IMG/VR virus record: IMGVR_UViG_3300010400_000013
Coordinates: 1-42,500 of that record
Length of the DNA stretch: 42,500 bases
Direction: 5' to 3' (one strand)
Origin: a virus
Shown: piece after piece, positions 2,022 to 40,358 of the stretch
Layout of the letters: each line of letters opens with the position of its first letter
Numbering within the stretch: position 1 is the stretch's first letter
Program-made: the position numbers and the translations under genes
The notes under the pieces: model-generated
Told to the model about the DNA's origin: nothing
What the model saw: only the letters and a program-made list of their open reading frames with translations
Databases searched by the model: none

Positions 2022-3692
2022 ATGGTTGGTACACCAGCGATCGGCGATGAGCCCATTGGCGGCGCACTCGTCCTCCCATATCCCGCCCTGGACTACTGGG
2101 TGCAGATCGGCGCCTCGACCGAGGGCGAAGTGCTCTTCGATTCCTTGAGCATTGAGGAGGGCGGCGATGGGATTACGCGAGCGAGATGTTCCATCGTCAA
2201 TCCAGACACGAGTGTTCGCGAGGGGAAAACCTTCTCGGTGATCTGGCGCGGGGAGGTAATCTTTGCGGGCATTATTCGAACAATGACGATTGACACGGAT
2301 CAATCGGAAACGGTCTTTATCTACGCGATTGAAGCCGATGGCTGGGACGCCTTGTTAGCCAGGCATCTCATCACGGCGACCTATAACAATCAAACGGCTG
2401 GATTCATTCTGCGCGATGCGATCACGGCGAGTGGGCTCGATCTCGATGGTGTCACGGCGGGCATGATTGATGAGGGGCCCAATCTCATTCTCGTGGAGGC
2501 CGACCATGTGCGCGTCGGTGATTTCATTCGCGATGTAGGTTCGGCGGGAGGCGGGCTGGCGTATATCGATCCGTATAAACGGATTCAGTTCAGGCCGACG
2601 ACGCTAGACGTGTCGGATGTCCAGGTGACGAATGCGCGCTGCGAGAAGATCAGCCACATGGGCGATCTCGATAACTACCGCAACCGGCAGATCGTCAAAG
2701 TCACTGGCTTGGATGGGACGACGACCGTGACGGAGACTCGTGATGATCTGGCGCAGCAGGCCTTGCGGATTGCGGATGAAGGTGGGAGCGGGATCTATGA
2801 GGCCTATGAAGAGGTGAAGCATCCCACGTCGAGCGTGTCCGGTGAATTGTCTATTCTCGGCCAGGCGGTGGGCTATGTGGACCTGCGGACCTATGCGAGG
2901 AATGCCCGGCGCGTCACGGTGACGATGCGTGATCCGGCGCCTCGCATTGGGCAGCTCGCGACACTGAGCCTGCCTGGCTTCACGCTCTCCGGCACCTTTG
3001 TGGCCATGCGCAAGACCTGGCGCGATGTGGCGGGGCAATTCCTCTTCGATATCGAATTCTGGGCGTCCAGTTTTCAACAGCAGGCCTTGCAATCGCTCCT
3101 GAAGATTGTGGGAGCCGGAAAGTCGACGGTCTCAATTTCGGCGGAAGTGTTTCCGAACGTGCAAGTCTATAGCACGGCAGGCACAGGATTTACCTTCACG
3201 GTGCCAGGCGGCATCACGGCCGTGCAATTCACGGCCTATGGTCCCGGTGGTGGTCCGGGCGGGAATCTTGATATTGGAAGCGGGTTTCATTTTAGTGGCG
3301 GGACTGGTGGGAATGGCGGGAAAGCGGTCACGATTTTAGCCGTGACGCCCGCGCAGGTCTTCGATATTACGGTGGGGGCTGGCGGGACGGGAGGCACAAA
3401 TGGGCGATCAAATGGCTCAGCGTTTTATTTTGACGTGCCGACAGATGGCGCAGCGGGGACCAATAGTGTGGTCTCTTTAACAGGCGTCATTAAATGCCAA
3501 GGCGATTCAGGCAACGGTGGAATTCATGCTAACAAGGATACTGGCAACGGCGCGGCAGGCAGTAATGGTGGCGGCAGTGGTGATGCCGTTGTCGTGGGAG
3601 GAGGCTCGACGGGGGGCGGGCAAGATGGGAACTTCTTTACCTTGCACGTGCAACCGAATGGCCCGGCTGGTCTGGTGGAGGTGCGTTGGTGA
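2022..3692 (+). CDS. Tail hub/tip protein with Gly-rich C-terminal domain
   Basis: A 556-residue protein. Residues ~1-360 look like a baseplate hub: they open with a beta-rich segment and include a YAIEADGWDALL..H stretch and a TYNNQTAGFILRDAI stretch typical of gp27-like hub proteins. Residues ~380-556 form a separate domain that starts with FTFTVPGGITAVQF and is very rich in Gly (many GG and GGxGG turns), as in glycine-rich tail-tip domains. Such domains often contact the host receptor. It precedes the endolysin gene, whose start overlaps its stop (GTGA). The hub role is inferred from order and fold-like features. Confidence 0.7.
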   Translation: MVGTPAIGDEPIGGALVLPYPALDYWVQIGASTEGEVLFDSLSIEEGGDGITRARCSIVNPDTSVREGKTFSVIWRGEVIFAGIIRTMTIDTDQSETVFIYAIEADGWDALLARHLITATYNNQTAGFILRDAITASGLDLDGVTAGMIDEGPNLILVEADHVRVGDFIRDVGSAGGGLAYIDPYKRIQFRPTTLDVSDVQVTNARCEKISHMGDLDNYRNRQIVKVTGLDGTTTVTETRDDLAQQALRIADEGGSGIYEAYEEVKHPTSSVSGELSILGQAVGYVDLRTYARNARRVTVTMRDPAPRIGQLATLSLPGFTLSGTFVAMRKTWRDVAGQFLFDIEFWASSFQQQALQSLLKIVGAGKSTVSISAEVFPNVQVYSTAGTGFTFTVPGGITAVQFTAYGPGGGPGGNLDIGSGFHFSGGTGGNGGKAVTILAVTPAQVFDITVGAGGTGGTNGRSNGSAFYFDVPTDGAAGTNSVVSLTGVIKCQGDSGNGGIHANKDTGNGAAGSNGGGSGDAVVVGGGSTGGGQDGNFFTLHVQPNGPAGLVEVRW

Positions 3693-7898: not shown

Positions 7899-7927
7899 AG
7901 TCTAACTACTCCGGCCTACCACGTCAA
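7899..7927 (-). promoter_or_regulatory. Leftward sigma70-type promoter
   Basis: On the minus strand TTGACG (7922-7927) is separated by 17 bp from TAGACT (7899-7904). Transcription would start about 7892, inside the operator pair, and run into the ribbon-helix-helix gene and possibly the integrase. Confidence 0.55.
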
Positions 7928-7991
7928 GCCTCTTCCATGCCTCTTAAGTATTACGTAGAACACCTCGCTAAAAATATATTTTGCGGCCTAC

Positions 7992-8020
7992 TTGACAAGT
8001 AGGCTACTTAGGGCTACAGT
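7992..8020 (+). promoter_or_regulatory. Rightward early promoter
   Basis: A perfect -35 box TTGACA (7992-7997) is followed after 17 bp by TACAGT (8015-8020). The operator pair 7999-8017 fills the spacer and overlaps the -10 box, so a bound repressor would block RNA polymerase. It drives the operon that starts at 8051. An AT-rich tract (7968-7983) lies just upstream. Confidence 0.65.
7999..8017. promoter_or_regulatory. Tandem operator pair in the early promoter
   Basis: GTAGGCTAC (7999-8007) is followed by TAGGGCTAC (8009-8017), again with centres 10 bp apart. The wider AGTAGGCTAC...CTACAGT block matches the one at 7879-7901. A further pair of CGGCCTAC sequences lies at 7912-7919 and 7984-7991. 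Confidence 0.6.
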
Positions 8021-20205: not shown

Positions 20206-21482
20206 ATGCGCTTTGAAAAGGCCGTCAACATCGCGCAGTTGAAACCATGGGCCAAGAATCCGCGCCAGCATGGGCAGGATGTTGACGCGCTGATTCGCTC
20301 AATCGAGCATTTCGGCTGGACGAATCCAATCTTAGTGCAGGAACGCACGAACCGAGTGATCGCGGGCCATGGGCGATTGGAGGCGGCGAAACGTGCAGGA
20401 TTGCTCAATGTGCCAGTGATCTTTCTGAATATGTCTATGCGAGACGCGACGGCCTATACCCTCGCGGATAACAAACTCGCGGAACTCTCGTCGTGGGATA
20501 ATCTGGCACTCAAAGGCGCCATCGATGATCTGAAACGTCAGGATTATGATCTCTCGCTGATGGGGTTCAGTGACGATGAAATCAATCAGATCGTGACGTG
20601 GGAATCGGACGAACTCGAGAGGACGGCCTCGGATGACATTCCGGCTATGCCGAATGAATCGATCTGCAAGCCAGGCGAGGTCTATGAATTGGGGCCGCAT
20701 CGGCTGTTGTGTGGCGACAGTACCGATCCTCTGCAAGTGGCGCTGGCCATGGGGGGGGCCAGGCAGACATGGTGTTTACCGATCCGCCGTATGGCGTGGA
20801 CTATGTCGGCAAAACGAAAGAGGCGCTCACGATCACGAACGATGATCTGGGCGATCGAGGCACGATGGCGCTAGTCACAGATGCAGTGAAAGCCTGGCCA
20901 CTCAAGCCAGGCGGCGTGTTTTACCTCTGTGGTCCAGCAGGCGATACCGAGACGGCGTTTCGGTTGGCGCTGCGGGCGGCAGGATTCACGCTGCGTCAAT
21001 GTCTGGTCTGGGTCAAGCATCATTTCGTCATGGGGCGCCAGGATTATCACTGGCGGCATGAAACCTTGCTGTATGGTTGGGCCGATGGGGCTCCGCATTA
21101 TTTCATTCATGATCGCACGAGGAATACAGTCTTCGACGAGGAGCGCAATCTCCGAGAGTTGAATCAAGAGCAGCTCATCGACATCATCGACGAGTATCGA
21201 CGACAGGATCAGACCAGCGTCTGGCGCGAGAACCGGCCTTCTGCGAGTCTGCTACATCCGACCATCAAACCCATCGCCTTAATCGCGAAGGCGATCAGGA
21301 ACTCGTCCTTGCCTGACGGCATGGTTTTCGATGGGTTCGCCGGGAGTGGGTCGACGCTGATCGCGGCACAGGAAACCGGACGGAGGGCCGTGCTGATGGA
21401 ACTCTCGCCACGGTACTGCGATGTGATCGTCGAGCGGTGGATGCAAACAGCAGGAGAGGGAGCGGCAAGGAGGTCTGCCTAA
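20206..21482 (+). pseudogene. ParB-domain DNA methyltransferase, frame broken at a G8 tract
   Basis: The first part encodes a ParB-type N-terminal domain (AKNPRQHGQDVDALIRSIEHFGW, then VIAGHGRLEAAKRAG). The second part, one base back in frame, encodes a beta-class N6/N4 methyltransferase with TDPPYGVDY (motif IV) and DGFAGSGSTLIAA (motif I). The frames meet at eight G bases (20751-20758). In the read sequence the first frame runs on to a stop at 20874 without the catalytic motifs, while the second stays open to 21482. A tract of nine or six G would give one fused protein. This could be phase variation, programmed slippage or a sequencing error. The next gene is the small terminase subunit. 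Confidence 0.75.
20751..20758 (+). repeat. Poly-G tract at the methyltransferase frame break
   Basis: Eight consecutive G bases directly follow CAT. The frame needed for motif IV starts within this run. Confidence 0.8.
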
Positions 21483-21931: not shown

Positions 21932-23819
21932 TGAAGCCGCCTTTGTTGAAGCGTCCTTCCTGGCCGGGCTCCGGCCCGATCCGCTGCAGACCATCGCGCA
22001 ATGGGCCGACGAGCATATGTTGCTGCCGAGCTGGTCCGCAGAACCAGGCCGCTGGCGCACCGATCGCACGCCCTACTTGCGCGAGATCATGGAATGCTTG
22101 TCACCGTCTTCGCCGGTTCGGCGCGTGGTCTTTATGAAATGCGCGCAAATCGGCGGGACCTCCTGCGGGGCGAACTGGATCGGGTACACAGTCCATCGGG
22201 CTCCCGCGGCCATGCTCATCGTGGAACCGACTGTCGATGTGGCGAAGAAACTCAGCAAGCAGAAGATTCAGCCGATGTTCGATACGGTGCCGGTCCTGCA
22301 CGGACAAGTCAAAGAGGCGCGATCCCGCGACTCCGGGAATACGATTCTGGCCAAGGAATATACCGGCGGCATGCTGGTGTTGACCGGGGCGAATAGCGGC
22401 GTCGGACTCCGGTTCATGTCCGCACAGAACTTGTTTCTGGACGAAGTGGACGCCTACCCCTATGACGTCGACGGCGAAGGCCCGCCCATATCCGTCGCAG
22501 AAAAGCGGGCACTGACCTATGCTCGGCATAAGATTTATATCTGCTCAACGCCAGTGCTCAAGGAAACCAGCGTCATTGAGCCGGAATATGAAGCCAGCGA
22601 TCAGCGGCATTTCTTCGTACCCTGTCCGCACTGCGGAGCCGAGCAATACCTGAAATGGGGGAATCTGAAATGGCCGAAGGAGCAGCCAGAATTGGCCCAG
22701 TATGAGTGCGAGGCATGCCTGGAAGCCATCCCGGAGCATCACAAAACCGCCATGCTGGCGTCTGGCCGGTGGATCGCGACCTATCCTGAACGATCGACCG
22801 CAGGCTTTCATCTGAACGCGCTCTATGCTCCCTATGGCTGGGTCAATTCCTGGGCTTATCTGGCGACGGAATGGACGAAGATCATTCATAAGCGGGATTT
22901 GCGGCAGCAACAGACCTTCACGAATACGAACCTGGCTGAGACGTGGGAAGACAGCGGTGAAAAGTTGGACGTGGTGGGCCTGGCCGGTCGACGCGAGGTC
23001 TATCCCGCGCCCTGCCCGGAGGGGGTCATTGTGCTCACCGGAGCCGTCGACGTGCAGGATGATCGCCTGGAAGTGGAATGCATCGGCTGGGGGCTCGGAG
23101 AGGAATCCTGGTCGATTGATTATCAGCGGTTCTACGGCTCCCCGAGTCAGCCGGATGTCTGGAGGCGGTTGGACGAATGGCGGAAGCAGACCTGGACGCA
23201 TGAATGTGGCGTAGCCATGAAGTTGATCCAGCTCGGGGTCGACACGGGGGGGCATCATGCCAAGGAGGCCTATGCCTTTGTGAAGGCGCGGCAGCGCGAG
23301 CGCGTGTGTGCCATCAAGGGGAGTAATCAACCGGGACATCCCCTAGTCGGGAGGCCTTCAAAGAATAATCTCGGCAAGGTCAATCTCTTCTCGGTCGGCA
23401 CCGATACGGCGAAAGACACGATCTTTGCGCGGCTCAAACTCGAGACGTTTGGGCCAGGTTATTGCCATCATCCGGTCGGCGAGACCTACGACGAGGAATA
23501 TTTCGCGCAGATCACGAGTGAAGAGAAGCGCAAGAAATATGACAAGGGAATTCTGCAGGGGACGTATTACAAAAAGACGAGGGCTCGGAATGAAGCGCTG
23601 GATCTCAAGGTCTACAATCTGGCCGCGTTCGCGATTCTGAACCCGAACATGGCGTCACTCGCTGGCGGATTAGAGCGGCAAGCAGCGTCGATCGCGCATC
23701 AGCAATCTGGCGCAGAGCGGGTCGACAAAGAAGAGGAATCCGACCGCCTCCCCGCGCCTCCCAGCACCCCACGGCAGCATCTACGCAGGCCGCGAGGGTT
23801 TGTGAAAGGATGGCGATGA
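21915..23819 (+). CDS. Terminase large subunit, GpA family
   Basis: A 634-residue packaging motor of the lambda GpA family. The ATPase part shows a Walker A-like region around Lys75 (KCAQIGGTS) and Walker B LFLDEVD (173-179). Four Cys (237, 240, 265, 268) form a zinc knuckle typical of GpA proteins. A TGAVDVQDDRLEVE segment begins the nuclease part, where the Asp is a likely metal ligand. The C-terminus is a Pro/Arg-rich tail. GpA-family terminases usually cut cohesive ends, so cos packaging is the likely mode; no cos site was identified. Confidence 0.93.
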   Translation: MPVAVDEAAFVEASFLAGLRPDPLQTIAQWADEHMLLPSWSAEPGRWRTDRTPYLREIMECLSPSSPVRRVVFMKCAQIGGTSCGANWIGYTVHRAPAAMLIVEPTVDVAKKLSKQKIQPMFDTVPVLHGQVKEARSRDSGNTILAKEYTGGMLVLTGANSGVGLRFMSAQNLFLDEVDAYPYDVDGEGPPISVAEKRALTYARHKIYICSTPVLKETSVIEPEYEASDQRHFFVPCPHCGAEQYLKWGNLKWPKEQPELAQYECEACLEAIPEHHKTAMLASGRWIATYPERSTAGFHLNALYAPYGWVNSWAYLATEWTKIIHKRDLRQQQTFTNTNLAETWEDSGEKLDVVGLAGRREVYPAPCPEGVIVLTGAVDVQDDRLEVECIGWGLGEESWSIDYQRFYGSPSQPDVWRRLDEWRKQTWTHECGVAMKLIQLGVDTGGHHAKEAYAFVKARQRERVCAIKGSNQPGHPLVGRPSKNNLGKVNLFSVGTDTAKDTIFARLKLETFGPGYCHHPVGETYDEEYFAQITSEEKRKKYDKGILQGTYYKKTRARNEALDLKVYNLAAFAILNPNMASLAGGLERQAASIAHQQSGAERVDKEEESDRLPAPPSTPRQHLRRPRGFVKGWR

Positions 23820-25639: not shown

Positions 25640-27251
25640 TTTCGGATTCAACAAAGTCCTTCGCGTGGTGAAGAACGCCTGGCAGGCCGTCAGGCTGTCG
25701 ACCACCAGCCTCCAGGCTCCACGCCGGCAGCAGCGCATGTATGCCATGGCCAAAGCCTCACGGTTGACCGTGGGCTGGGGCACGTCGGTCAGCAGTGAAG
25801 ATACTGAACTCTCGTCCAGCCTCCGCACCGCTCGGGCGCGATCGCGTCAACTGGTGCGCGATGCCGCCTATGCCAAACGCGCCAAGGTGATCGTCCAAAA
25901 CAACGTCGTCGGCCAGGGCATCGGCATGCAAGCGCAGGTGATGAACTCACGCGGAGAACTCAATAACCGGATCAATGACGATATCGAAGCAGCGTGGGAG
26001 AAGTGGTGTGAGAAACAATCCTGTCATACCGGCGCATCGCTGCATTTCGCGGACTATGAACGCGCCGTCATAGGGCAAGTCTTTGAAGCGGGCGAAGTCT
26101 TCACGCGGAAACATTTCAGGAAATTTGGCGACTCACAGATTCCATTGGCCCTGGAATTGATCGAGGCTGAGCGGATTGCGGATGATGCGAAGCCTGGACC
26201 GGCTGATGCAAACAATGGGGTAAGGCTTGGAATAGAAGTAAACTCCTTTGGAGCCCCGATTGCCTATCTGATTCGCACGCTCCATCCGGGCGAGCTGCGG
26301 TTGATGCCGGAGCAAACCGACAAGATCGAACGCATTCCCGCTGACCTGATTGTGCATAACCGGATTATTGATCGCTGGCCACAAACCAGGGGCATTCCCT
26401 GGATGCACGCCGCCGCTCGCAAACTGAACGATATGGACGGGCTCACGGAAGCGGAGATCACGGCAGCGCGTGCCGCCGCCTGCTACATGGGCTTCATCGA
26501 ATCACCGGAAGGCGAGTCGGAGTTTGCGACGACGCAGGAGGACGGCTCGAAGCAGTTAGAACTGGAACCCGCCGTGGTCGAGCGGCTCGATCCAGGGGAG
26601 AAGTTCACCTACGCCGCGCCCAATCGCCCAAACAGCCAGCTGGACCCGTTCATGCGGATGATGCTGCGTGAAGTGGCGGCCGGCACGGGCAGTTCATATG
26701 AAAGCCTTTCACGGGATTATTCACAGAGCAATTACTCCTCGTCGCGCCTTGCGCTCATCGACGATCGTGATCTCTGGCGTACCTTGCAGCGCTGGTTTAT
26801 CCGCGACTATCGCATGCCCATCCATCGCCAATGGCTCCAGCAAGCGGTGCTGTCAGGGGCCATTCCCAGCATCAATATCCAGGAGTATGGCGCCAATCCG
26901 TCGAAGTTCGAAGCTGTGCGGTTTAAGCCGCGTGGCTGGAGCTGGATTGATCCCACGAAGGAAGTCGAAGCCTACAAAGAAGCGATCCTCGCCGGCTTCA
27001 CGACGGTCGGCCGCGTCATTGATTTGACGGGCGACGGCTCCGACCTCGAAGACATTTTGAAAGAGCGCAAGCGCGAATTGGAACTCATGAAAGATGCAGG
27101 CCTGGTCTTTAGCACGGACCCCAGTGCGGTCCAGCTTGCCCCACTGCCCGTCGCACAGACTGATCCGAACGCACCGGCTGATCCCTTAAATGATCCGACC
27201 GTCAATGCGGCAGAAAAAATGCTACGCATCGCAGGGAGGAACCATGCCTGA
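25632..27251 (+). CDS. Portal protein, lambda family
   Basis: A 539-residue portal subunit of the lambda GpB family, forming the dodecameric ring through which DNA is packaged. A conserved N-terminal region (RQLVRDAAYAKRAKVIVQNNVVGQG) is followed by EAWEKWCE-like and YERAVIGQVFEAGEVF segments. The middle motif RGIPWMHAAARKLNDMDGLTEAEITAA is diagnostic for this family, and a SSYESLSRDYSQSNYSSSRLAL stretch also matches. The GTG start overlaps the preceding gene; the end overlaps the protease-capsid start. Confidence 0.92.
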   Translation: MFDFGFNKVLRVVKNAWQAVRLSTTSLQAPRRQQRMYAMAKASRLTVGWGTSVSSEDTELSSSLRTARARSRQLVRDAAYAKRAKVIVQNNVVGQGIGMQAQVMNSRGELNNRINDDIEAAWEKWCEKQSCHTGASLHFADYERAVIGQVFEAGEVFTRKHFRKFGDSQIPLALELIEAERIADDAKPGPADANNGVRLGIEVNSFGAPIAYLIRTLHPGELRLMPEQTDKIERIPADLIVHNRIIDRWPQTRGIPWMHAAARKLNDMDGLTEAEITAARAAACYMGFIESPEGESEFATTQEDGSKQLELEPAVVERLDPGEKFTYAAPNRPNSQLDPFMRMMLREVAAGTGSSYESLSRDYSQSNYSSSRLALIDDRDLWRTLQRWFIRDYRMPIHRQWLQQAVLSGAIPSINIQEYGANPSKFEAVRFKPRGWSWIDPTKEVEAYKEAILAGFTTVGRVIDLTGDGSDLEDILKERKRELELMKDAGLVFSTDPSAVQLAPLPVAQTDPNAPADPLNDPTVNAAEKMLRIAGRNHA

Positions 27252-29100
27252 AGAAGTGGTCAAGCAAAAAGGGCTGTTTCGTCGATTCATTAGTGACGGC
27301 ATATTCGAAGTGAGGAAGAGCGAAAACGGCAAACGCACACTCAGCTTTTCCGCGTCGTCAGAGCAACCAGTCGATCGATGGTATGGCACGGAAGTGCTCT
27401 CGCATGAGAAGGGCGCAGTCAGGATGGAGCGGGCCAATGGCGGGGCCATGCCGCTCCTGGTGAACCATGACGTGCATGATCCCATCGGCATGATTACCGG
27501 AGCGAGCCTAAAGTCCGGGCGCTTGATGGTCGAGTCTGATCAGTTCCAGACAGATCGAGCCGCAGAGGTGCAAAAGTGGATCGATGGCGGCTTGCGAAAT
27601 GTCTCAATCGGCTATCGCGTGCATACAATCGAAGAAGACGTGAAAACCGGCAGCTTCACGGTCACCGATTGGGAACCCTATGAAGTATCGATTGTCACGG
27701 TGCCCGCTGATCCTACGGTCGGCATTGGTCGGAATGAAAGTGAATACGACGTGCGAATGATTCGAGCGAGCCTCACGGCGGATAAACCCGCCATAACCAG
27801 GGAGTCTACGATGCCTGAAATTAAAGAGGTCGAGCCAGTAGCGAAAGAAGTGAAAGTCAGCGGCGTGGAAGCCGAGAAGGAACGGCGTCAAGCCTGTCTG
27901 AACCTCGGCACGTCCAATCGCATTGACCCCAGAGTGGTTGATCGATGGATTGCGGAAGGCACACCGCTCACGCAAGTGGCGAGCGAAATCCTTGACGTGA
28001 TGGAAGAGCGCGGCAAGCAAAAGCCGCTGGAAGCCGCACGGCTCGGGCTCTCCAATAGCGAATCCAAACGCTATAGCCTGTTCAATGCGATCCGCTACCT
28101 CAAATTCCGCACACCGGAATTGCGGGAGAAAGCGGCCTTCGAACTGGAATGCTCGCAAGCAGTGGCAAAGCGGATTGATCGCGGGATGACATCAAACCTG
28201 CTCGTCCCGTCAGAGGTGCTGGAACGTCCGCTGCCAGAAGAAGCGGTCAAGCGCACCATGACGACGATTCCTGGTTCGAAGGGCGGGTATCTCGTCAATG
28301 TCCAGAATATGGGCTTCATCGACATTCTGCGAAACCGCTCTGTCGCGATGGCCATGGGATCGCGGGTGCTTTCAGGGCTGCAAGGCAACGTGACCTTTGC
28401 CCGTCAAACGGGAAAAGTCTCCATTACCTGGCAGGCAGGAGAAGCCACCAGCGTAACCGCTGCCGATCAGGCACTGGGGCAGCTGTCCATGACCCCCAAG
28501 ACCTGTATTGCCATTACCGACATCTCGGAACAATTGCTCGCCCAATCCTCTCTCTCGGCGGAAGCCTTCGTCATGGCGGATTTAGCCGCAGACGTGGCCA
28601 TTGATGGGGTGGATGCCGCCGTGATCAATGGCACGGGTGGGGCGCAACCTTTGGGCATCAAGAATTCGACGGGTGTGACTACGGGACAGGATGCCGCCGC
28701 CGCGACCTATGCCAAAATTCTGGCCTTCCCAGCAACCGCAGGAGGGTCCAACGCCATCAGGGGCAATCCTGGATGGGTCACCAACATCGCGGGGGCTGCC
28801 GTGCTCATGCAAAAGTTCCGGGTCGCCAATACGGATACGCCGCTTTGGGAAGGCAATCTGATGAACGGCTCTCTGGTCGGATTCAACGCGATGTCGAGTG
28901 AGCAACTGGCCTCCGCGAATCTGATCTTCGGCTCATGGGATGAAGTCGTGATCGGGGAATGGGGCGTGCTGGAACTGTCTACTGATACCGGAGGGACACG
29001 CTTCAATACCGCCACGGTTGGCATCCGCGCCATGTGGATGGTCGATGTCATGATCCGCTATCCGCAGGCGTTTGTCGTCTCCGTCAATTTAGGAGCCTAA
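27244..29100 (+). CDS. Prohead protease fused to HK97-fold major capsid protein
   Basis: A 618-residue fusion. The ATG at 27244 follows GGGAGGA; a longer frame lies in the portal gene. Residues ~1-165 are an HK97 (S78-type) protease with His75 (VNHDVHDPIG), Ser121 (NVSIGY) and Glu147 (EPYEVS). Residues ~170-310 are a charged scaffold-like linker (ERRQACLNLG, RIDRGMTSN). Residues ~310-618 are the capsid domain (GGYLVNV, ITDISEQLLAQSS, AINGTG-like GTGGAQPLGI). The protease would cut itself off during maturation, leaving the capsid subunit. Capsid and protease usually come from separate genes, and no separate copies are present. Confidence 0.9.
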   Translation: MPEEVVKQKGLFRRFISDGIFEVRKSENGKRTLSFSASSEQPVDRWYGTEVLSHEKGAVRMERANGGAMPLLVNHDVHDPIGMITGASLKSGRLMVESDQFQTDRAAEVQKWIDGGLRNVSIGYRVHTIEEDVKTGSFTVTDWEPYEVSIVTVPADPTVGIGRNESEYDVRMIRASLTADKPAITRESTMPEIKEVEPVAKEVKVSGVEAEKERRQACLNLGTSNRIDPRVVDRWIAEGTPLTQVASEILDVMEERGKQKPLEAARLGLSNSESKRYSLFNAIRYLKFRTPELREKAAFELECSQAVAKRIDRGMTSNLLVPSEVLERPLPEEAVKRTMTTIPGSKGGYLVNVQNMGFIDILRNRSVAMAMGSRVLSGLQGNVTFARQTGKVSITWQAGEATSVTAADQALGQLSMTPKTCIAITDISEQLLAQSSLSAEAFVMADLAADVAIDGVDAAVINGTGGAQPLGIKNSTGVTTGQDAAAATYAKILAFPATAGGSNAIRGNPGWVTNIAGAAVLMQKFRVANTDTPLWEGNLMNGSLVGFNAMSSEQLASANLIFGSWDEVVIGEWGVLELSTDTGGTRFNTATVGIRAMWMVDVMIRYPQAFVVSVNLGA

Positions 29101-34390: not shown

Positions 34391-34537
34391 ATGGCCGACA
34401 AGGGACCAAAAGGCAATATCATCCCGCGCTTATTGGCGTGGCTTGAATCACAAGGGATTGAGCCGAGTGAAGCGATTCTTCGACATGTACTCGGCATCGC
34501 GAAATCATTGGAGACCAAATCGAGAGAGAACAAATAA
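34391..34537 (+). CDS. Small helical protein, unknown
   Basis: A 48-residue protein starting right after the previous stop (GTAGATGG). It is a single helical domain (NIIPRLLAWLESQG, then AILRHVLGIAKSLE) with a Lys-rich start and end. No family was recognised. The UTR hairpins follow directly. Confidence 0.45.
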   Translation: MADKGPKGNIIPRLLAWLESQGIEPSEAILRHVLGIAKSLETKSRENK

Positions 34538-34557
34538 CCCATCCGCTTCCAGTACGC

Positions 34558-34587
34558 CATTCAGTCACGCGCCCGCCTCACTGAATG
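34558..34587 (+). promoter_or_regulatory. Upstream hairpin of the 34626 leader
   Basis: CATTCAGT (34558-34565) and ACTGAATG (34580-34587) are perfect complements, giving an 8-bp stem with a 14-nt loop. The leader before 39535 has a stem with the same loop length in the same relative place. Confidence 0.6.
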
Positions 34588-34588
34588 A

Positions 34589-34623
34589 CTCGCCTCCTTG
34601 AAGCCTCACCACAAGGAGACGAG
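34589..34623 (+). promoter_or_regulatory. Ribosome-binding-site-sequestering hairpin
   Basis: CTCG plus CTCCTTG (34594-34600) pairs with CAAGGAG (34612-34618) plus CGAG, interrupted by one C/A mismatch; the loop is 11 nt. The ribosome binding site AAGGAG (34613-34618) lies wholly in the right arm, ending 7 bases before the ATG at 34626. Folded RNA would hide the site. Confidence 0.65.
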
Positions 34624-34625
34624 CT

Positions 34626-35249
34626 ATGTTTACTTCTTCATTTCGCGATACCTGCCTCGGACAATTGGGCGGATTCGTCGGCCTGATCAAAGCCATTTCC
34701 GACTGGCGAGCCGGGACCGTCACCGAAGCCGCCTATACCGGCTATGGAACACGGCCAGCGATTACCTACGGGGCCGCTGCCAATACGTCACCAACTGGCG
34801 GACGGCAGAAGGCTAACTCAGCTGCCGTCACCTTCCCGCAGAATACCGGCTCGAACGAAGATCAAATCGGCTGGGGGATTTATTCAGCGGCCACCGCAGG
34901 CACACTGCAAGCGATCGGCCTGCTCGATACCGATCCACCCATCTTTGGCACCGGCCTCGTCAACGACAATATTGAAGCCTTCGCGCACGGTCTCCAAGCC
35001 GATCAGCGCGTGTTTGTGCTGGCAGCTCCTGGTGCAGTGATTCCCACGGGGCTCGCAGAGAATACCGCCTACTTTGTGCTGGCCGCTGGATTGACGGCCG
35101 ACGTGTTTACGCTCTCCACGACATCGGGCGGTGCCGCCGTGAACATCACCGTAGGCGGGGCCTCGTTGTTCATGCCCTATAAGGCCGTGACGGTGGCGAC
35201 AAACGCGACACCGGAGTTTGCGATCGGGGCCTTGGTGGTCCAAATCTAA
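34626..35249 (+). CDS. Tail-fibre-like virion protein
   Basis: A 207-residue protein with a leader containing two hairpins. The N-terminus (TSSFRDTCLGQLGGF..LIKAISDWRAG) resembles a phage virion family I recall that begins with a short helix followed by a beta domain (FPQNTGSNEDQIGWGIYSAATAGTLQAIGLL). The C-terminal half contains a beta domain (ENTAYFVLAAGLTADVFTLST) like those in phage receptor-interaction proteins. It is the first of three fibre-like genes. Confidence 0.55.
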   Translation: MFTSSFRDTCLGQLGGFVGLIKAISDWRAGTVTEAAYTGYGTRPAITYGAAANTSPTGGRQKANSAAVTFPQNTGSNEDQIGWGIYSAATAGTLQAIGLLDTDPPIFGTGLVNDNIEAFAHGLQADQRVFVLAAPGAVIPTGLAENTAYFVLAAGLTADVFTLSTTSGGAAVNITVGGASLFMPYKAVTVATNATPEFAIGALVVQI

Positions 35250-36250: not shown

Positions 36251-38146
36251 ATGAGCGATCTCGTTGTCGGAGGACCAGGACCTGGTGTGGGACTCGCGGA
36301 AACCGGGAGTCCAACTTCGGGCACCACGGTCAATGTCTCCGGTACGGCCAGGATGGTGGTCCGGCTGCTGGCGCTGAGTCTCTCATTAGTCTTCATGGCA
36401 ACGCCAGCGAAGGCCATGGAGCGGATCAAGGGCGCCACACTCACCGGAAAGGTGGCCCTAGCTGGCACTCTCCGGTCGACCGAGCGCCTCTCTTCTGGCT
36501 TCCTGGGAGGCAAAACCGCGCTCGCAGGGACCAGTCGAGACAGTGAGCGCTTACCTGGGGCCACCCTCGGCTGGAAGAATTCACTTACCGGAACACTACG
36601 AGCGAGTGATCGGCTCTCGTCTGGACTCTTGACGAGTAAGACCAGCCTCGCCGGGAAGTTCAGGACTAGCGAAAGACTGACCGGCAATCTTGGATTCAGC
36701 GCCGGCCATCAGCTCATTACGGGCACCACTCGAGATTCCGCACGCCTGCTGTCTACTGCCATCTCCCTGAACTATTCCGCTACTCCAAGCCGAGACTATC
36801 CACGCCTACGCGGGGCCTTCCTGGGTGGCAAGACGAGCCTGGCAGGCACGATTCGGAGCAATGAGCGAGATAATGGGCTCCTGACCAGTAAACTGCCTCT
36901 GTTCGGCAAAGTACGCGCCTCCAATCGGAGCTATGCCGTCTGGACCGTCCATGCGCCTTCAGCCATCGAAGGCAGCCTAAGAGCGCCAGCACGGCTCAAG
37001 GGGGCCACCCTGATCGGGAAGGTGGCCCTGACTGGCAAGATACGGTCTAGTTCAAGGGATCTCGCCCAACTCCAATTCCAAGGCACGACCACCTCAATCA
37101 CCGGAACGACTCGAGAGACCTCAAGACTCGTGGTCACTGGGATGTCCCTGGCCTATGCCGCAACCCCCTCCAGGGAAAGTGAGCGACTGCGCGGAGCGAC
37201 ACTGGGATTTGTCGGCGTAGGCGGGAAAGTCTTCATTGTCGGGACCAGTCGTGATTCGGATCGGCTGATCGGCAGACTTGGCCTGGTCTATGATGTCTCG
37301 CCTCTCGTCAACAGTCCGCGCCTATTAGGGGCTGCGCTGATTCAAAAGCGACTTGTGACCGGGACCGTCCGATCCACAGATCGTCTGCGAGGGGCTTCGC
37401 TCTCATTCCCTGGCGCTGCGCTCTCAGGCACCGTGCGAGAGACCGAACGCTTGCGTGGAGCATTGCTGACTGGCAAAGTCTCACTCAGCGGGACGGTTCG
37501 AGACGAGGAACGGCTGCTTGGGGCCATCCTCATCAGTAAAACGGCATTAGGCGGCACGATTCGCTCGACTGAACGAGAAACCGGCAATATCACCTTTGCC
37601 GGAGCGACCCAATTGCAAGGCTCCTCTCGCGTTCTCGTTAGCCTTCCGGGCGTCCTGCTCACGGGCAAAACCGCACTGATTGGCACGATTGTCGAGCTGC
37701 CTCGGCTGTCTAGTGGATTCCTGGGTGGCAAGACGTCGCTCATCGGGACGGTATGCGGATCTGAACTGGTCAAGAATGCCAGCTTCAATGTGCGCGTGCC
37801 GATCGCAGGGACGCTCCGCACGAGCGAGCGCGATCTTGGCGCAGTCCTGATCCTGAAAACGCTGACGGGCATCAATGGGAAAACCTCTCTGCATCCCCGG
37901 TTGCTCGGGGCCACGCTCATCGGAACGAGCACCTTCAACGGCACCATTGTTGCCGTCTCGATCTTGCCAGGGGCCGCGCTCACGAGTGATCTGGAGCTGG
38001 CGGGGATCATGCGGGCGACTGGTGCGCGATTGGTCAATGGCTTGAATCCCGTTGGCGAACCCTATCGCATTCTGGATTCGACCGATCATGCCGTCATCTT
38101 CATCGCCACAGATCGCCCGTTCACCATGCCCTTTGAGAAGACATGA
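36251..38146 (+). CDS. Long repeat protein, about two dozen 21-residue repeats
   Basis: A 631-residue protein made almost wholly of imperfect ~21-residue repeats with the pattern ERL-x-GA-x-L-x-GK-x-x-L-x-GT-x-R-x-S, one after another from about residue 57 to 600. This suggests a long beta-solenoid or fibre. Residues 35-56 look like a signal peptide (hydrophobic core, then ATPAKA) preceded by its own Met at residue 35 (36353), but with little ribosome binding site; the first 34 residues are Gly/Pro-rich. Either the protein starts at 36251 with a buried hydrophobic segment, or it starts at 36353 and is exported. The C-terminal ~30 residues are different (DSTDHAVIFIATDR). Confidence 0.6.
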   Translation: MSDLVVGGPGPGVGLAETGSPTSGTTVNVSGTARMVVRLLALSLSLVFMATPAKAMERIKGATLTGKVALAGTLRSTERLSSGFLGGKTALAGTSRDSERLPGATLGWKNSLTGTLRASDRLSSGLLTSKTSLAGKFRTSERLTGNLGFSAGHQLITGTTRDSARLLSTAISLNYSATPSRDYPRLRGAFLGGKTSLAGTIRSNERDNGLLTSKLPLFGKVRASNRSYAVWTVHAPSAIEGSLRAPARLKGATLIGKVALTGKIRSSSRDLAQLQFQGTTTSITGTTRETSRLVVTGMSLAYAATPSRESERLRGATLGFVGVGGKVFIVGTSRDSDRLIGRLGLVYDVSPLVNSPRLLGAALIQKRLVTGTVRSTDRLRGASLSFPGAALSGTVRETERLRGALLTGKVSLSGTVRDEERLLGAILISKTALGGTIRSTERETGNITFAGATQLQGSSRVLVSLPGVLLTGKTALIGTIVELPRLSSGFLGGKTSLIGTVCGSELVKNASFNVRVPIAGTLRTSERDLGAVLILKTLTGINGKTSLHPRLLGATLIGTSTFNGTIVAVSILPGAALTSDLELAGIMRATGARLVNGLNPVGEPYRILDSTDHAVIFIATDRPFTMPFEKT

Positions 38147-38436
38147 ATACGTTTAGCAAACAGCCGGCTGAGACCTATACCATCGGGATTGACTTCGCGG
38201 GCAAACTACCGGCTGGGGCGACCCTGGCGAATGGGACTGTGACGGCCATGGATGCTGCTGGTATAGACGCGCCTGGTGTGATTTCCGATGCATCGGCCAC
38301 GATCGTCGGCAATGAAGCGCGGATCAAGGTGCTGGCGGGGCTGCATGGTCAAGACTATCGCATTCGTTTTCGGATGACGCTTTCGAACGCCGACATTTTG
38401 GAAGAGGACGTGCTGATGCGTGTGGGGAATTTGTAA
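38143..38436 (+). CDS. Small beta-sandwich tail protein
   Basis: A 97-residue protein with an ATGA overlap. FSKQPAETYTIGIDFAGKLPAG, SDASATIVGNEARIKV and DYRIRFRMTLSNADILEEDVLM match an Ig-like pattern that is common at this place in phages, between head and tail genes. It probably decorates the tail or completes the head-tail joint. Confidence 0.6.
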   Translation: MNTFSKQPAETYTIGIDFAGKLPAGATLANGTVTAMDAAGIDAPGVISDASATIVGNEARIKVLAGLHGQDYRIRFRMTLSNADILEEDVLMRVGNL

Positions 38437-39430: not shown

Positions 39431-39466
39431 CAGTTCAATCATATGTTGACCGCTTCTCGCACGCTC

Positions 39467-39492
39467 GTCAGCCACGCTCAGGCTTCGCTGAC
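39467..39492 (+). promoter_or_regulatory. Upstream hairpin of the tail-tube leader
   Basis: GTCAGC (39467-39472) and GCTGAC (39487-39492) pair around a 14-nt loop that itself contains AGCC/GGCT. The position relative to the next hairpin mirrors the leader at 34558. Confidence 0.55.
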
Positions 39493-39494
39493 CA

Positions 39495-39530
39495 GATCGC
39501 CTCCTTGGAGCTTACCCAATAAGGAGGATC
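39495..39530 (+). promoter_or_regulatory. Ribosome-binding-site-sequestering hairpin before tail-tube gene
   Basis: CCTCCTT (39500-39506) pairs perfectly with AAGGAGG (39521-39527). GAT (39495-39497) pairs with ATC (39528-39530) beyond a 2-nt bulge; the loop is 14 nt. The whole AAGGAGG is the ribosome binding site for the ATG at 39535. Confidence 0.7.
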
Positions 39531-39534
39531 GATT

Positions 39535-39969
39535 ATGTCCAGTGGCGCAATTCCAGCATACGGCACCCTACTCAAAAGAGAAACCTCGTTCGGCTCGACC
39601 GTCTTTGTGACGGTCGCTGAAGTCAAGTCGATGAATGGCCCCTCGATGAAGGGCGACATCATTGACGTGACCACACACAGCTCCGCAGCAGCCGGAGCCT
39701 GGCGCGAGAAAATTTCCAGTTTGCTCGATCCAGGAGAAATCGGGTTTTCGATCAACCTCATTCCGGCGTCAGCCGGTCATAAGGCCCTGCTGTCCGATTT
39801 CACCGGGCGGGTGAAGACAAATTACAAATTCGTGTTCCCGGATGGAGGGTCAACCGAATGGGCCTTTACGGGCTATACCACGCAGTTCGGTGCGAAGGCG
39901 GAAGTCGATGGCGTCTTAGAAGCCGATATGACGGTGACACTCACTGGAGCCCCAACATTCCCAGCATAA
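39535..39969 (+). CDS. Major tail tube protein
   Basis: A 144-residue protein of the lambda GpV-type tube family. The N-terminus GTLLKRETSFG is followed by VAEVKSMNGPSMKGDIIDVTTHSS, the recognisable tube-protein motif, and by LLDPGEIGFSINLIPASAGHKALL. The C-terminal part (VDGVLEADMTVTLTGAPTFPA) completes the beta-barrel. Hundreds of copies would polymerise into the tail tube. Its ribosome binding site lies in a hairpin. Confidence 0.85.
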   Translation: MSSGAIPAYGTLLKRETSFGSTVFVTVAEVKSMNGPSMKGDIIDVTTHSSAAAGAWREKISSLLDPGEIGFSINLIPASAGHKALLSDFTGRVKTNYKFVFPDGGSTEWAFTGYTTQFGAKAEVDGVLEADMTVTLTGAPTFPA

Positions 39970-39995: not shown

Positions 39996-40358
39996 ATGGC
40001 ACGTAAGGATATTCCGGTGATTATTCCGAAGGGACCATATCCGACACTCCCAGTCGGCGCCCTCGCACTCGATTTCGTGTGGACGACGGCAGACAACGCC
40101 ACGGGTGATCAGTTCCCGCTGACGGGGAGAGAATTGATCCTGATTAATAATACTTCTGGAGGTGGCCTCACTGTCACACTCACCAGCGCCCCAGACCCGC
40201 AAGGTCGCACGGCGGATATTACCACCTATGCCGTGGCGGCTGGGCTCTATTCCGCCTTCTGGGTCGGCAAGGTCGACGGCTGGAATCAGGGAGGTCTGTT
40301 TTTCCTGACAAGTTCAGCCGCCACGATGAAGTATGCCATTTTCCGCATTCCTGGATAG
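39996..40358 (+). CDS. Virion structural protein, unknown
   Basis: A 120-residue beta-rich protein after AAAGGAGG. It has FVWTTADNATGDQFPLTGRELILINNTSGGG and TYAVAAGLYSAFWVG motifs, a pattern I recall in phage head or tail decoration proteins. Its position between tube and chaperone genes suggests a tail-associated role. Confidence 0.55.
   Translation: MARKDIPVIIPKGPYPTLPVGALALDFVWTTADNATGDQFPLTGRELILINNTSGGGLTVTLTSAPDPQGRTADITTYAVAAGLYSAFWVGKVDGWNQGGLFFLTSSAATMKYAIFRIPG

Follow-up and report, generated by a model that had tools for sequence, protein, structure and literature searches.

A homologous two-hairpin leader predicted to hide the ribosome binding site before the tail-tube and fibre genes of an uncultured phage

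The output of structural genes is commonly attributed to transcription and to strong, open ribosome binding sites. Why, then, should the site of a tail-tube gene lie inside a hairpin? The question is raised by a tailed-phage record of IMG/VR (IMGVR_UViG_3300010400_000013, positions 1 to 42,500). This whole stretch of 42,500 nucleotides is called the window below. The gene for the tail-tube (major tail) protein of 144 amino acids is located at 39535–39969 on the plus strand (PHROG 158, E 6e-22; PF16461). The gap upstream of it is 104 nt long and contains both hairpins of a conserved element, leader B (39449–39534, plus strand; 99.9 bits with the covariance model R3, in which B is included). The leader begins with a 5' box (ACCGCTTCTCGCACGC, 39449–39464), which falls in invariant columns of the alignment A5 and is mostly unpaired by prediction. 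In hairpin 1 (39467–39492), GTCAGC (39467–39472) pairs with GCTGAC (39487–39492) and encloses exactly 14 nt. In hairpin 2 (39495–39534), the GATCGCCTCCTT arm pairs with AAGGAGG and CGATT and is predicted to hide the Shine-Dalgarno sequence AAGGAGG (39521–39527). CCTCCTT (39500–39506) is fully complementary to this site, which stands 7 nt before the ATG at 39535. The layout given for 39467–39535 in the preliminary description, a 14-nt loop followed by perfect pairing of CCTCCTT with AAGGAGG, was thus found in both parts. The term loop needs a correction, however; its length is exact in B, but in all seven copies known it probably holds a 3x3 internal loop and a 2-bp GC/GC helix. Comparison of the folding energy with shuffled sequences gave a divided answer. 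The minimum free energy of 39467–39535 was -25.5 kcal/mol (z -3.32), and 0 of 200 dinucleotide shuffles were as good, whereas in a 101-nt stretch the z-score was -0.65 and 46 of 200 shuffles matched it. Because the signal fades with the longer context, folding energy by itself is not decisive for leader B. The decisive evidence for the leader structure is conservation and covariation rather than energy. AAGGAGG occurs 16 times on both strands of the whole window, against about five expected, and one copy immediately precedes the next gene start at 39996.

The second leader of the window, leader A (34542–34625, plus strand), lies before a Gp80-like fibre gene of 207 amino acids (34626–35249, plus strand; PF23140, E 3.5e-9). 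It was found with R3, which was built from B and five relatives with A left out, at 68.6 bits (E 3.2e-17). The next-best R3 match in the window after the leaders scored 11.2 bits. Hairpin 1 of leader A (34558–34587, plus strand) has an 8-bp stem, CATTCAGT/ACTGAATG, and a 14-nt loop. In hairpin 2 (34589–34623, plus strand), CTCG-C-CTCCTTG pairs with CAAGGAG-A-CGAG, again hiding the Shine-Dalgarno sequence by prediction. The z-score was -3.03 for a 91-nt stretch (1 of 200 shuffles as good) and -4.86 for a 71-nt stretch (0 of 200). Leader A therefore folds as B does, with a stem, a 14-nt loop and then a hairpin pairing with the Shine-Dalgarno sequence, and the shared architecture described earlier is upheld. 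The accompanying statement that the two leaders differ in sequence apart from the site is not. Fifty-four of 84 aligned bases are identical, and the local alignment score was 42 against a mean of 15.5 and a maximum of 33 in 2000 shuffles. Among the parts they have in common are the 5' box, which is unpaired, and CACGC...GCYTC in loop 1. When the window was compared with B in 20-base steps on both strands, only the two leader places stood out. Judged by their sequences, A and B are homologous copies of one element of about 85 nt, beyond mere likeness of design.

Comparison across related phages, a check suggested in the preliminary description, bore the layout out, since the two-hairpin structure recurs before their tail-tube genes. 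Five further distinct copies were obtained from IMG/VR, each directly before a tail-tube gene. Together with A and B they make seven distinct leaders, the identical sequences of L092 and L094 being counted once. A scan of 13 tube loci confirmed by tblastn gave a leader at L002 (tube 93% identical), L003 (91%) and L005 (81%) and none at L004 (83%), L006, L007 and L009–L014; L008, with 28 nt of upstream sequence visible, was not judged. A scan with the hairpin-1 pattern added L093 (tube 71% identical) and L092. The L092 tube is just 28% identical to that of the window, yet it belongs to PHROG 158, and its leader shares 50 of 82 bases with B and 55 of 82 with A. No leader was recognisable at the more distant tubes L056–L060, L062, L063, L072, L082 and L085, or at the fibre-gene relatives L053 and L054; L052 starts inside the gene and is not informative. 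The tube matches L083 and L084 (opposite orientation), whose upstream sequence was not properly read, were excluded from every count. Because close relatives such as L004 do without the leader, hiding of the site is optional and not required for making the tube protein.

Wider searches gave few additions. The pattern CGCCTCCTTG-N5-20-AAGGAGG met 38 stretches in IMG/VR, of which L002 was the sole true relative; the other 37 had no hairpin 1. The pattern GCCTCCYTGRAGC...AAGGAG gave nine matches, namely the real leaders of L002, L003 (as L055) and L005 (as L079) and six (L074–L078, L080) rejected for the same reason. Seven weak covariance-model matches to Rfam were obtained across the window, all of them away from the leaders and below their gathering scores. 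No cultured phage or plasmid gave a convincing leader match among 50,697 phage records and 72,556 plasmids. In Streptomyces and other distant loci (L064–L071, L073), scanned with the covariance model R1 only, the best match reached 17.8 bits. It lies on the minus strand, far from the tube gene, and was taken as chance. Searches of open-licence PMC papers listed no description of such a leader.

The structure was also recovered from the alignment itself. Unguided RNAalifold on A5 independently returned the same 15 pairs, comprising hairpin 1 (6 bp), the inner 2-bp GC/GC helix and hairpin 2 (7 bp), and the length of loop 1 is 14–16 in the relatives. In A5, 94.2% of the cells are paired, against at most 52.1% in slid controls. 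Hairpin 1 carries double changes at two pairs, with C-G, G-C and U-A at one and C-G to U-A at the other. The covariation score was reached in 3 of 500 shuffles and the fraction of cells paired in none of 500. Two other measures were reached far more often (pairs with a change on both sides, 130 of 500; further pair types, 308 of 500), and the covariation signal is modest. The core of hairpin 2 is largely invariant and hence silent in covariation, and three of its seven pairs are broken in some copies. Its outer arms vary (GATCG/CGATT in B, CTCG/CGAG in A, TTCG/CGAA in L092) and are short or imperfect in L093 and L005. In L092 the site is GGGGGG, and it is still paired through a U-G change. The occluding arm thus tracks the Shine-Dalgarno sequence of each copy, GGGGGG included. 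Pairing fell in both hairpins when arms were swapped between copies; the native contiguous-pair sum of stem 1 was reached by 36 of 5040 permutations and the native duplex energy of hairpin 2 by 20 of 5040, counts that ignore the relatedness of the copies. The z-scores of single copies ranged from -4.86 (A) to -0.32 (L005), with -1.22 for L093 and -1.42 for L092. Kissing of loop 1 or of the 5' box with loop 2 fits B, but it fails elsewhere on inspection of A5 by hand.

Identity between leader copies is 0.60–0.92, and that at fourfold synonymous sites of the neighbouring tube genes is 0.39–0.51 (window, L002, L003, L004 and L005). Because the non-coding leader changes more slowly than silent sites, it is under constraint. 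On this comparison the leader is under purifying selection, the predicted-unpaired 5' box and CACGC...GCYTC included. The 5' box also resembles, in antisense, the codons for GVLEAD in the tube gene (about 12 bits), but leaderless phages show this too and it was attributed to chance.

Each of the seven copies is positioned with hairpin 2 over the site of the next gene. In the folding model, the unpaired probability of the site in the seven leaders was 0.00–0.35 with 35-nt flanks and 0.00–0.21 with 80-nt flanks, and the mean values were 0.10 for B and 0.00 for A (0.002). Among 51 start sites of the window taken from a rough gene call (median 0.42), A ranked first and B ninth. The leaderless tube and fibre genes gave 0.15–0.82 over the flanks tried, and the sites of leaderless L004 and L012 are partly closed too (0.15–0.23). 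By the model, closure of the site is clear in the leader genes but not unique to them.

A search for a common regulator, also suggested earlier, yielded no recognised RNA-binding regulator among the proteins scanned, but it did yield a candidate. An open reading frame of 48 amino acids at 34391–34537 (plus strand, stop included) ends four bases before the start of leader A. It belongs to a family of proteins of about 26–49 residues, the RH-x-x-G family, whose genes lie immediately before five of the seven leaders (A and those of L003, L005, L093 and L092); L004 has a 26-residue version and no leader. An HMM built from L093 and L004 recognised the proteins of L092, L005, the window and L003 at 16.9–18.1 bits, against 5.5 bits for the best of 1000 shuffles. 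In the reverse direction, an HMM from the window, L003 and L005 recovered L093 and L004 and missed L092. Among tube loci whose interval is visible, four of six with a leader have the small protein adjacent, versus one of twelve leaderless ones, the twelve including the near-duplicates L006/L007, L009/L011, L056/L059 and L013/L014. The leader-bearing tube loci without it are B and L002, of which L002 is a fragment. Structure prediction gave two helices (mean pLDDT 74.8, pTM 0.38). The proteins of the window, L003 and L005 had no confident Pfam or PHROG family match, and the signals in Pfam, PHROGs and PDB sequences were weak and inconsistent. A weak match at 3001–3096 of the unrelated contig L091 lies inside a longer open frame, has no leader and is likely chance. 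By analogy with Mu com/mom, the small protein is the leading candidate for a trans-acting factor; the data would fit a passenger gene that is simply linked to the leader equally well.

The alignments establish one homologous leader of about 85 nt. It has the conserved 5' box, followed by hairpin 1 and then by hairpin 2, in which the left arm is predicted to pair with the Shine-Dalgarno sequence. We lean, by a little over even chances, towards the leader being an RNA operator that acts in cis on the translation of late structural genes, off by default and opened by a trans-acting factor. On the naked transcript, hairpin 2 would lower ribosome loading. Late in infection, a factor encoded by the phage or the host would recognise hairpin 1 and the 5' box and would open hairpin 2. 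This would switch the tail tube together with, in this phage, the fibre protein, and the RH-x-x-G protein may be that factor. The earlier idea that two structural genes share a regulated leader is partly supported in this way. Its core agrees with the homology, selection and covariation seen in the sequences. A more far-reaching proposal, to which we give a low probability, is a new RNA family with a dedicated small protein. The RH-x-x-G protein would then be a Com-like translational activator of every leader copy in the genome, and virion proteins would form a post-transcriptional regulon in these uncultured, temperate phages, which probably infect Nitrospira.

Several other explanations have to be weighed against the operator. 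The closed state could be a matter of timing with no regulator, as for T4 gene e. Read-through transcripts would be silent, and a late promoter inside the leader would give a shorter, translated transcript without the left arm. T4 e is a documented case of such timing, and soc, 49 and I-TevI are given as further genes with hidden sites (PMC3014915); timing of this kind would explain the default-off state without a protein. A scan limited to sigma-70-like sites, however, gave no such promoter in leader A or B, and the compensatory changes in hairpin 1 are not expected of a promoter stretch. We regard this explanation as unlikely. The same standing is given to an RNA processing or stability element, whose hairpins would direct cleavage by an RNase or shield the structural mRNA at its 5' end, with the hidden site as a tolerated cost. 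Two adjacent conserved hairpins, intergenic and in an apparent operon, would suit it, but stability alone does not require that the left arm follows the Shine-Dalgarno sequence of each copy, as it does with GGGGGG in L092 and with the differing outer arms.

The leader might also act as DNA, either as a short conserved gene-border sequence for modular exchange or as a protein binding site. Its presence is patchy, it spans tube genes just 28% identical, and leader A with its small open reading frame is closer to L003 (0.72) than to leader B (0.64). The fixed orientation and spacing to the start codon, always over the Shine-Dalgarno sequence, and the RNA covariation speak against this, and we consider it still less probable than the two explanations above. 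An RNA thermometer or a leader-peptide attenuator is disfavoured and very improbable. Thermometers typically hide sites, but in the model the opening of the site shifts by at most 0.06 in any copy from 10 to 65 °C. One open frame through hairpin 1 is common to five of the seven copies, but no start codon is common to the copies and two of the seven frames are shifted.

The phage is probably temperate, because the window carries a tyrosine integrase gene (PF00589, 6624–7565, minus strand). A protein with a ParB N-terminal domain and a DNA methylase are encoded at 20206–20874 and 20709–21482. The nearest genome match of the tube (56%) is in a prophage-like region of the Nitrospira metagenome-assembled genome L061, and two genomes of the L061 genus match parts of 21997–22951, inside the terminase gene, at 65–68% DNA identity. 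On these two grounds, Nitrospira is the likely host. L061 itself has a diverged two-hairpin leader before its tube gene (7900–8003), the second hairpin covering GGAGGC with GCCTCC (z -2.79, 1 of 200 shuffles). It was not matched by the covariance models R1, R2 and R3, and the 31-residue reading frame upstream of it was not recognised by the HMM of the small-protein family. It may be an analogue or a remote homologue. Among the candidates scored, which were a part of the total, neither R1 nor R2 had a match at E <= 0.001 across 29 genomes of the L061 genus; the 295 genomes of the phylum, searched with R1, yielded none either. The 17 R2 matches at E <= 1 are about the chance expectation, and the seven inspected included no convincing leader. 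Elsewhere in the window, 34626–35249 and 38143–38436 match Pfam Gp80 (fibre) and Gp77 (fibre-tail adaptor) of podophage GP4, and these genes sit in a tail cluster with a lambda-like tail tube. A 636-residue protein (27190–29100) matches the PHROG 'major head and protease protein' and major head protein, and is a probable protease-capsid fusion.

Mu com is located just upstream of mom. Com is proposed to bind a hairpin beside a translation inhibition structure and so to expose the start signals of mom (PMC6483171). The leader described here likewise has a hairpin beside a predicted translation inhibition structure; were the RH-x-x-G protein an activator, the logic would be alike and the sequence unrelated. 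Mom, however, is a DNA-modification gene and the present leaders precede structural genes. Com is a zinc finger, whereas the small protein, a putative RNA binder, has two predicted helices and, as read in the window, L003, L005, L093, L004 and L092, no cysteine. No zinc-finger Com protein was found upstream of a leader among the proteins scanned (window, L003 and L005). In T4 e, soc, 49 and I-TevI, and in Aeh1 mobE, the Shine-Dalgarno sequence or start codon is locked in a helix, and late promoters relieve the hidden site of e (PMC3014915). The predicted sequestration is alike here. The T4 hairpins are gene-particular as far as that text describes them, whereas here one homologous leader with a second conserved hairpin stands on different structural genes. 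The closest in genome design are the SAS and extended SAS of Cluster K mycobacteriophages. A conserved, phage-specific repeat covers the Shine-Dalgarno sequence, with an upstream inverted repeat, at genes of different families (PMC3203893). It occurs in 11–19 copies per genome, and the authors find little support for mRNA hairpins (PMC3203893; see also PMC12699233). The present leader is unlike it in sequence, and covariation supports the hairpins here; the 13-bp SAS GGGATAGGAGCCC, within two mismatches, was not seen on inspection by eye of the seven leaders. Orf1 of lactococcal phage bIL66 activates abiD1 translation and binds to a structural motif of translation initiation regions (PMC2661086). 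This is also activation of translation by a phage protein, but its target is a host defence gene. No sequence relationship was found to the Mu com/mom, T4, SAS/extended SAS or bIL66 systems.

Hidden-site phage leaders are thus already known. We know of no other case of a homologous two-hairpin leader common to different virion genes with a linked small protein family. The tube protein is needed in many copies; that a conserved, exchangeable leader is predicted to close its site in several lineages of phages speaks for a checkpoint on tail assembly at the level of translation. The leader is a compact, directly testable RNA, with a candidate protein, in phages that probably infect nitrifiers.
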